Below, one piece after another: positions 43,715 to 46,095 of a DNA stretch of 64,000 nt. This DNA is from Streptomyces sp. PH10-H1. Its GTDB lineage: Bacteria; Actinomycetota; Actinomycetes; Streptomycetales; Streptomycetaceae. Position 1 is the first letter of the stretch. Every line of letters begins with the position of its first letter. The notes beneath the pieces are model-generated. The model did no database searches, was not told where the DNA came from, and was given only the letters and a program-made list of their open reading frames with translations. The translations under genes and the position numbers were made by a program. The DNA is taken from NCBI RefSeq assembly GCF_030063355.1, contig NZ_JASISZ010000005.1, positions 124,001 through 188,000 on the forward strand, given 5' to 3'.

Positions 43715-44491
43715 ATGAACAGGACCATCCTTCCGCTGGTAGGTCTCGCGGCTTTCGGTTTGCCGCTGGCCTTGCCCGCTGTGGCATCCGCACAGTCCAC
43801 CGGCGGTGACGTGAACTATCAGGCCACGCTCGACCCGGTGGCCACGAACATGGTCAACGGATCGGGCACCGCCACGGTGACCCTGTCCGGCAATGAGGCC
43901 ACCATCTCGGTGACCGCGAACCAGCTGCTCGACAGTGCCCCGCACGCCCAGCACATCCACATCGCGGGTTCCGGCGAATGCCCGAAGGCTGACGCGGCCC
44001 ACGACCACAACGGGCACAAAGCCATCAGCACCGCCGACGGCCTTCCCGCCTACGGGAAGATCGGCACATCGCTCACCACCACCGGTGACACCAGCCCCAA
44101 CAGTGCCCTGGCCGTCGACCGCTTCCCGAGCACTGGCGCGTTCCACTACACCCGCACCATCACCGTGACCCCGGACGTAGCCCAGCAGATCCGGGCCAAC
44201 AACGCCGTCATCGTGGTGCACGGAATCGACTACAACCACAACGGCAAGTACGACAACGTCCTCGGAGCCAGCGAGCTCGACGCGAAGCTCCCCCAGGAAG
44301 CGACCGCACCGGCCATCTGCGGAGCCCTGAAAGCCATGCCGGTCGGCGGGGCGGGCACCGGTGACGGTGCAACCCAGGCCACCGGCAGTCCCAACACCGC
44401 GGACCTGCTGGCCACCGGCCTGGGCGGCGCAGCCGTCGCCGCTCTCGCCGGCACCCTGCTCCTGCGGCGTCGGGCCGCATCGAAGCAATGA
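43715..44491 (+). CDS. Secreted CHRD-domain protein with sortase-like C-terminus
   Basis: 258 residues, ATG 43715 with GGAGA upstream. Signal peptide (ILPLVGLAAFGLPLALPAVASA). CHRD-like beta domain about 28-200 (NYQATLDPV..GSGTATVTLSGNEATISV, HAQHIHIAG, VVHGIDYNHNGKY). The last 35 residues read SPNTADLLATG, a hydrophobic stretch and RRR: a cell-wall sorting signal layout with LLATG (231-235) in place of LPxTG. It overlaps the sortase gene by 4 bp (ATGA), so the sortase probably anchors it. Confidence 0.8.
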   Translation: MNRTILPLVGLAAFGLPLALPAVASAQSTGGDVNYQATLDPVATNMVNGSGTATVTLSGNEATISVTANQLLDSAPHAQHIHIAGSGECPKADAAHDHNGHKAISTADGLPAYGKIGTSLTTTGDTSPNSALAVDRFPSTGAFHYTRTITVTPDVAQQIRANNAVIVVHGIDYNHNGKYDNVLGASELDAKLPQEATAPAICGALKAMPVGGAGTGDGATQATGSPNTADLLATGLGGAAVAALAGTLLLRRRAASKQ

Positions 44492-45222
44492 CCGACCAGC
44501 CCACGACCGACGGTGACCTCGCCCAGGAGCCGGAAGGAGCCGCCCCCTACCACGCGGGGGGCGGCCACCGCCGCCGCACGGTCGTCGGTCTTGCCGCCGC
44601 CCTCGCCCTCGCGGCCGGCGCCATCACCGTCTCCCTCACCGGTCACGGCGCCGGTGCCGGACCACCACCCCAACCCGCAGTCGCGGCAAGCCAGTCCACT
44701 CAGGCAACCCCTGCGCGGCCCACTCCCCCGGACCCCTCAACGCCCGCTGCCAGCACGGGCAATGTACTGCCCGCCTCCCTACCCGTAACGCTGGACGTCC
44801 CCGCCATCGGGGTGCACACCAGCCTGCTCGAACTCGGCCGGAATACCGACGGCACCGTCCAAGTGCCGTGGCAGCCGCTCAAAGCCGGCTGGTACAAGGG
44901 CTCTCCGACCCCCGGGCAGCTCGGCGCCTCTGTCATCCTCGGCCATGTCGACTCGAAGGAGACCGGCCCGGCCGTCTTCTACCGGCTCGGCGCACTCACC
45001 CCCGGAACCCGCATCACCGTCACCCGCGCCGACCGCACCATTGCGACCTTCACCACCGACACCGTCCGCGAATATCCCAAGGACCACTTCCCCACCCTGG
45101 ACGTTTACTCCACCACCGCAGACCAACCCCAACTCCGCCTGATCACCTGCGGCAACTGGGACGCCCGAACCCACTCCTACCTCGGCAACATCGTCGCTTC
45201 CGCCACTCTCACCACCAGCTGA
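44488..45222 (+). CDS. Class F sortase
   Basis: 244 residues. N-terminal membrane anchor (VVGLAAALALAAGAITVSL), Pro/Ala-rich linker to about 95, sortase domain with catalytic His153 (LGHVDS), Cys221 (LITCGN) and Arg227. Class F features: short domain, IPAIGVH-like strand VPAIGVHTSLLELG and late Arg. Transpeptidase that links surface proteins to the cell wall. Translationally coupled to its likely substrate. Confidence 0.9.
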   Translation: MTDQPTTDGDLAQEPEGAAPYHAGGGHRRRTVVGLAAALALAAGAITVSLTGHGAGAGPPPQPAVAASQSTQATPARPTPPDPSTPAASTGNVLPASLPVTLDVPAIGVHTSLLELGRNTDGTVQVPWQPLKAGWYKGSPTPGQLGASVILGHVDSKETGPAVFYRLGALTPGTRITVTRADRTIATFTTDTVREYPKDHFPTLDVYSTTADQPQLRLITCGNWDARTHSYLGNIVASATLTTS

Positions 45223-45580
45223 ACGACCGGCGCCCGAACGCCTCCATCACCTGGGCCGCCTTCCTGCACTCCCAGGCCGACGCCCTGCTGGCCTGCGACT
45301 TCCAGGAAACGATCTCCCTGTCCGACACATGGCTCTACGTGCTCGCGGTGATCGAGCACGCAAGCCGCCGGATCCGCGTCCTGGGTGCCACCGCACACCC
45401 GACCGCCTCCTGGGTGACACAGACCGCGAAGAACCTCGTCATGGACTTGGAGGACGCCGGCACTCCAGCGCGGTTCCTGCTCCGGGACCGGGACGGGAAG
45501 TTCCCCGAACTGTTCGACGCCATCCTCGCCGACGCGGGCATCGAGGTCGTGCCGCAGTCTCCTGGTGATCTGCATCGCGA
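45223..45580 (+). pseudogene. Integrase/transposase fragment, catalytic-core part
   Basis: The frame reads SITWAAFLHSQADALLACDF, WLYVLAVIEHASRRIRVLGA, NLVMDLEDAGTPARFLLRDR and FDAILADAGIEVV. This is the rve core with the first two acidic residues (ACDF and RDRDG) but without the final Glu region, after which similarity stops. There is no start codon. It is in the same orientation as the N-terminal fragment at 40608. Confidence 0.75.
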
Positions 45581-46095
45581 GCGACCTCACGCGCTACGAC
45601 GCTCACGCAGTGAAACGTCCTCCGGCGGGAGACGCTGGTCGCTCCGGGGCGGGGGCAGCCACGGTGGCCGCTTCGTGCTGCGGCTCGCCGGGGGCGGCGC
45701 GTAGCCCGCTCGGGTGACAGGACGGCCCCAGTCGGCCAAGTGCACCCGAATGGACGCAATCAGTGTCGGTTGCGGGGTCCCACCTGCGGTCTGCGTCTCC
45801 GTCGGCTGGGCCTCGACCGGGGGCGAGAGGTCCAGCAGGGGACACGGCTGCTCCAGTCGGAGTAGTGCAGACCAGGACATAACCAGCCGCGTGCTTCACT
45901 GTCTCGATCTTTCGTGACGGGTAAGCCAGGAGCTCATCACCTCCGGGTTGCCCGCCTTGCTTGCGAAGTCCGAGTGGGAGAGCATTTCGTACAAATCGCT
46001 CATATGTTGCGATGCTCCGCTGGTCTCCATGGCCGAGGCTCATGCCGGGCGTCGCCACGAGCGTCAGCAACACGAGCGACTGCAAGGGGTTCATC
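45581..46095. other. 515-bp region without a supported gene
   Basis: A 97-codon minus-strand frame (45587-45880) is open but has no domain pattern and lies in the high-GC bias expected of a shadow. No clear promoter for the transporter operon was fixed. Confidence 0.35.

Follow-up and report, generated by a model that had tools for sequence, protein, structure and literature searches.

Among the systems closest to the one described here are two loci of A. missouriensis, in which the class F sortases SrtF1 and SrtF4 adjoin the exported proteins AMIS_11010 and AMIS_36440, which have a membrane segment and a basic end and no known pentapeptide (PMC13251363). The excerpts of that paper suggest that these neighbours may be substrates, yet set them aside without a known pentapeptide, and they report no visible phenotype for a quadruple class F sortase deletion. 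The role of class F sortases is stated to be unknown there and in the excerpts of a second paper, which also note that Asn replaces Arg in actinobacterial class F enzymes (PMC6998099). Sorting signals for classes A to E, and not for class F, are given in the excerpts of a third (PMC5148588), and the class F sortase of Cutibacterium acnes has been reported to use LPXTG (as cited in the excerpts of PMC13257024). A search of the open-licence literature found no paper naming a class F motif; GVDTG appeared in seven papers, no title of which concerned sortases, and APDTG together with sortase in none.

The system is already known in part, as NCBIfam models both the tail and the sortase and the Arg-to-Asn replacement in class F is published. 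The motif described here is wider and better defined than the initial annotation of this DNA had assumed, and the locus examined here is an ordinary member of its kind. Class F sortases scored over the cut-off in 124 of 296 sampled genomes of the taxonomic class. A concrete motif and a predicted cleavage bond make the question of class F substrates directly testable.

A surface protein gene overlapping a class F sortase gene

The window, a 64,000-nucleotide stretch of the Streptomyces sp. PH10-H1 genome (contig NZ_JASISZ010000005.1, positions 124,001 to 188,000), includes two adjoining genes with the following features, numbered from the first base of the window.

43715..44491, + strand: secreted surface protein gene (ORF, 258 aa), with a CHRD-like domain bearing a SodC-like HxxHxH signature and a C-terminal sorting tail
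43715..43792, + strand: signal peptide-like N-terminus of 26 aa, MNRTILPLVGLAAFGLPLALPAVASA followed by Q (ASA/Q), read by eye from the translation
44339..44362, + strand: probable sorting motif PVGGAGTG, residues 209-216 (NF058571 match, unsupervised motif, kept in homologues)
44405..44419, + strand: LLATG, residues 231-235, at the start of the membrane segment; poorly conserved
44405..44464, + strand: C-terminal hydrophobic segment, approximately residues 231-250 (from the sequence, by hydropathy)
44465..44473, + strand: basic stop-transfer cluster RRR, residues 251-253 (from the sequence)
44488..45222, + strand: class F sortase gene, 244 aa (NF033748, Pfam Sortase, AlphaFold2 model)
44944..44946, + strand: codon of catalytic His153 (74/74 class F sortases)
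45136..45138, + strand: codon of Arg217, four residues before the Cys and near-invariant in class F (66/70 HMM-selected)
45148..45150, + strand: codon of catalytic Cys221 (74/74; the scan pattern included the Cys)
45187..45189, + strand: codon of Asn234, which takes the position of the classical Arg of the active site (74/74, outside the scan pattern)

The stop codon of the surface protein gene (TGA, 44489-44491) overlaps the start codon of the sortase gene (ATG, 44488-44490) as ATGA, an overlap seen in the initial annotation too, and the C-terminus that it read as SPNTADLLATG, a hydrophobic stretch and RRR is present in the 258-aa protein. Its broader proposal, a cell-wall sorting layout with a signal other than LPxTG or LAxTG, is supported: neither motif occurs in the tail, the tail exceeds the cut-off of NF058571, and the arrangement recurs in 40 of 40 loci (see below). 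In having a class F sortase beside an exported, tailed protein the locus is like the SrtF1 and SrtF4 loci of A. missouriensis as outlined in the excerpts of PMC13251363, and it has the same wall-sorting layout and xTG core as the class E, LAxTG-bearing substrates of Streptomyces in the excerpts of PMC5148588.

The probable sorting motif of the surface protein

The C-terminus of the window protein (residues 208-253) scored 32.1 bits against the NCBIfam model NF058571 (GVDTG_CTERM) in hmmscan, where the cut-off is 29, and the same tail scored 36.3 bits in the genome search. Its motif, linker, membrane segment and basic end follow one another as in the modelled tails. The letters differ, being GAGTG; the literal GVDTG pentapeptide is absent, and membership in NF058571 is set by the cut-off. 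Because of the position of the match, the counterpart of GVDTG is GAGTG (residues 212-216) and not LLATG (residues 231-235). The conserved element PVGGAGTG lies 19 residues upstream of LLATG.

When the 258-aa protein was used to search 297 genomes of the family, homologues were found in 41 genomes at 52 places, 50 of which were read (two short partial matches were omitted), giving 49 distinct C-termini. The upstream motif was present in 40 of these, 39 by regular expression and one (L112, ASVNTG) by eye, and was absent from nine. Exact LLATG was found in two of the 49, the window included. In the closest homologues its place reads LLATG, LIATG, LIAAG or LVAIG, with GGAGTG constant. LLATG stops within the hydrophobic stretch, 15 residues short of RRR, and the LAxTG motifs of the same genome lie 23-27 residues before the first Arg. 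The initial annotation had proposed LLATG as the recognition motif and had set its conservation in orthologues beforehand as a test; the outcome went against LLATG, and with two of 49 C-termini, two of the 131 partners described below and a location where the membrane segment has already begun it was rejected as the sorting motif. The sorting motif is probably GAGTG within PVGGAGTG, and the scissile bond is presumed to be Thr215-Gly216.

A related motif beside most class F sortases examined

A profile scan of genome contigs with the class F alignment yielded 79 loci from many actinomycete genera; the scan pattern took in the surroundings of the active-site Cys, and the conservation of those residues is therefore built in. 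The loci collected in all contained 143 distinct class F sortases. For 131 of them the ORF upstream has a hydrophobic stretch and basic residues at its C-terminal end, a set that is not neutral since loci L016-L072 were recruited by the GVDTG model and others by the CHRD-like protein. The 131 partners were reduced to 91 at 60% tail identity, and five of these, which had no RRR-type anchor, were dropped to leave 86 tails. A first unsupervised motif run recovered only the membrane segment and RRR, and the second was therefore limited to the stretch upstream, a segment of no more than 50 residues whose end lies 12 residues ahead of the first Arg; LLATG falls within this range. The motif found in the 86 tails was [VM]PxG[GA][VPA]x[T/A/G]G, with T at 0.80, A at 0.13 and G at 0.06 in the penultimate position. 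Its log-likelihood ratio was 617, compared with a maximum of 137 in 20 shuffles, and it ended 28-49 residues (median 31) before the first Arg. The element picked in the window was MPVGGAGTG. In a few of the 86 tails, L199 and L012 among them, the motif placement has a low score or seems wrong.

As a check neutral with respect to tails, 70 class F sortases were taken class-wide with the NCBIfam sortase HMM as the best-scoring among the matches listed, a non-random sample. An upstream ORF with a sorting-tail-like end was found for 65 of these 70 best-scoring sortases. The regular expression matched 53 of the 70 loci; in 1000 shuffles it matched 1.8 on average and 6 at most. The remaining 17 comprised five with no sorting-tail-like ORF, five with such an ORF but no motif, and seven whose partners were judged by eye to carry a close variant, in two cases with Ser at P1. 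Some of the motif-less ORFs look spurious, and one locus (L227) is the same as L058, whose tagged partner is located farther upstream. For a sortase signal, Ser as the presumed P1 residue, seen in the partners of L215 (GAPDSG) and L222 (GAPQSG), is unusual.

LPxTG was found in none of the 131 upstream partners and none of the 65 HMM-set partners, and LLATG in two and none, respectively; since some genomes contribute to both sets, these counts are not independent of each other. The absence of LPxTG differs from the LPXTG use attributed to the C. acnes class F enzyme, which was compared by description only, from the excerpts of PMC13257024. The variants seen in the alignments (APDTG, HVKTG, GPATG and GVAAG) spread wider than the model name GVDTG suggests. 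Judged by these alignments, GAGTG is a member of a tag family found beside most of the class F sortases examined. Three loci of the Actinoplanes lineage (L144, L154 and L201) have a partner with RGPATG. AMIS_11010 and AMIS_36440 were compared with them by description only, and RGPATG is a testable candidate for the pentapeptide missing from the excerpts of PMC13251363.

Motif variants and the sortase phylogeny

A sortase tree was built from 125 pairs, 89 after removal of redundancy; it rests on few columns and many of its forks are weak. The automatic motif caller missed 14 of the 131 partners, eight of which were assigned by eye for the tree. The P1 state (T versus A or G) changed seven times on the tree of 89 sortases, compared with a mean of 15.0 after shuffling, and none of 500 shuffles was as low. 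Several sortase clades have their own wording of the motif, namely GAPDTG, GHVxTG, GGMKTG, GGVETG and GGADTG/GGAGTG. In these alignments the motif variants follow the sortase tree, which is co-inheritance; exclusive recognition by the cognate sortase is something we infer from it, and since linked genes share their history the agreement is no proof of specificity. A dedicated pair with its own motif, as initially proposed, stands in so far as the substrate gene and its likely class F sortase adjoin, and has to be amended in that its motif is a dialect within a signal common to the family.

The Streptomyces sp. PH10-H1 genome has 15 sortase-domain matches, ten of which were read as class F. Eight of the ten have an adjoining upstream protein bearing the motif, and two (L007 and L008) have no sorting-tail protein directly upstream. 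One of the eight motif-bearing neighbours (L012, VPAGGGG) is an outlier. Two class F-type (GVxTG-like) tails were found elsewhere in the genome (L025 and L033), with no class F sortase within about 3 kb around each. These numbers, with ten sortases, eight tagged neighbours and two orphan tails, mean that strict one-to-one pairing is not established. The genome also has six LAxTG (class E-type) tails, none of which matched the class F expression. Their LAxTG lies closer to the first Arg than the class F motif does (23-27 versus 28-49 residues).

Class and active site of the sortase

The window sortase was assigned to class F by NCBIfam NF033748 (170.4 bits, cut-off 166, E 2e-50), in agreement with the initial annotation, and the class E and class D models gave 18 and 11.4 bits, far under their cut-offs. 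The Pfam Sortase domain scored 79.1 bits (cut-off 26.6). An AlphaFold2 model built from 74 rows, which replaced an earlier 5-row model with a mean pLDDT of 59, had a mean pLDDT of 78.3, with residues from about 91 onwards mostly above 84. The region from about residue 97 to 244 of the model aligns to solved sortases (best Z 16.6, rmsd 1.7, 127 aligned). A sequence search of the PDB with the window sortase alone gave no match, and a search with the 74-row profile found distant sortases only.

His153, Cys221 and Arg227 had been pointed out in the initial annotation, and the first two hold, since all 74 class F sortases aligned have them, with the Cys inside the scan pattern. Arg227 does not: 10 of the 74 enzymes have Arg at this position, too few for a conserved catalytic residue of class F, and Arg227 was rejected as the catalytic Arg. 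The classical catalytic Arg position is occupied by Asn234, invariant in 74 of 74, and an Asn 8-16 residues after the Cys was found in 68 of the 70 best-scoring HMM-set sortases among the matches listed. Arg217, four residues before the Cys, is present in 74 of 74 in the alignment whose scan pattern included it and in 66 of the 70 best-scoring HMM-set sortases, the others being three His and one unread. The same place is Thr in the five non-class-F sortases of this genome and Arg in class F. Our guess is that Arg217 shares in catalysis.

Joint occurrence of tail and sortase

Among the 50 CHRD-like loci read, 41 have a tail, one of these loci being truncated where its contig ends. The 40 tailed loci that could be read, the window being one, all have a class F sortase domain that begins 218-419 nt downstream of the stop codon. 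None of the nine tailless loci has an intact sortase in the 1.3-2.6 kb downstream. The tail and the sortase thus occur together and are missing together, though the tailless loci may stem from few loss events. In one locus (L094, G136:C79) the CHRD-like frame is fused straight to a 34-residue sortase C-terminus, which is probably a relic. In another (L102, G288:C120) the tail looks frameshifted and no sortase was found there. Both loci look decayed. Single genomes of close relatives have several copies of the pair (L074, L104 and L118 in G079; L075, L103, L105, L107 and L109 in G094), so the module was duplicated or acquired repeatedly.

Proposed mechanism and alternatives

We consider it very likely, from gene order, overlap, domain families, motif conservation and co-occurrence, all of which are seen at the sequence level, that the locus is a two-gene cell-wall anchoring module made up of a GAGTG-tagged CHRD-like protein and a class F sortase. 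The first gene would encode an exported CHRD-like protein whose class F sorting signal would consist of GAGTG within PVGGAGTG, a linker of about 14 residues, the membrane segment and RRR. The second gene, overlapping the first translationally, would encode a membrane-bound class F sortase. Cys221 is predicted to attack the Thr215-Gly216 bond and the sortase to transfer the protein to a cell-wall precursor, and LLATG would be merely the beginning of the membrane segment. Against such a module stand the spacing between the motif and the first Arg, which exceeds that in this genome's LAxTG tails, the quadruple class F deletion of A. missouriensis with no visible phenotype (PMC13251363) and the LPXTG use reported for the C. 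acnes class F enzyme (PMC13257024).

That LLATG is nonetheless the true motif, as a derived specificity of the window pair alone with GAGTG an inherited remnant, appears very improbable. The xTG core near the membrane segment and the LLATG-like sequences at that place in the closest homologues speak for it. Thr is missing from LVAIG and LIAAG within this same close group, where GGAGTG is unchanged, and the scarcity of exact LLATG in the homologues, its absence from the HMM-set partners and its short distance from RRR all argue the other way. It is also unlikely, if less so, that the tail simply anchors the protein in the membrane or is a class E substrate, with the class F sortase a fortuitous or inactive neighbour. 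An inactive enzyme would be consistent with Asn in place of the classical Arg and with the absence of a phenotype in the A. missouriensis class F deletions reported in the excerpts of PMC13251363, but the motif and the neighbouring position of the two genes are found in different genera, the Cys and the His never vary, and tail and intact sortase are jointly absent from nine loci. Handling by class E is at odds with the LAxTG carried by the class E-type tails of this genome.

The anchoring module leaves room for class F sortases that are interchangeable and share one signal, with adjacency reflecting co-regulation; this differs on exclusivity only, as the motif is shared. We regard such sharing as a real possibility while leaning against it. 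One consensus fits nearly all of the variants, and the genome has both orphan tails and class F sortases without a tailed neighbour, but the dialects follow sortase clades (GAPDTG, GHVxTG, GGMKTG and GGVETG), though shared descent alone could suffice for that. A bolder generalization, which we put forward tentatively and think rather doubtful as a whole, is that actinomycete class F sortases form dedicated pairs, each with its signal in a dialect of PxG[GASH][VPA]x[T/A/G/S]G, with Thr, Ala, Gly or Ser at P1 (Ser by eye), so that one genome, with ten class F sortases in this case, would run several separate wall-anchoring channels, each with an Asn-for-Arg active site in which the near-invariant Arg on the strand preceding the Cys (Arg217 in the window) partly stands in for the classical Arg. 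Dialects of this kind would, if orthogonal, be candidates for new protein-ligation tools.

The cargo protein

The protein was initially described as a secreted CHRD protein. A signal peptide-like start was seen by eye, and Pfam CHRD (PF07452) scored 15.9 bits, under the gathering cut-off of 24.1, which makes CHRD-like the safe name. CHRD matches at E up to 0.1 were found in 14 of 16 members of the cargo alignment (best 0.00029). With an E threshold of 10, Pfam Sod_Cu (PF00080) did not match the window protein; it matched one of the 16 members (E 0.0047). In profile comparisons, actinomycete SodC (Cu/Zn superoxide dismutase) matched the cargo better (89.2% probability over 54 columns) than true CHRD proteins did (67.8% over 42 columns). 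A search of the PDB with the cargo profile gave a single match, at chance level. The cargo alignment has an invariant PHxxHxH...CP and VxHGID pattern, which we take to resemble the copper ligands of Cu/Zn superoxide dismutase, and the cargo may be a wall-anchored copper protein.

Directly 3' of the sortase gene, positions 45219-45701 gave a weak match to rve (integrase core; 19.4 bits, cut-off 32.6) and are probably a transposase remnant.
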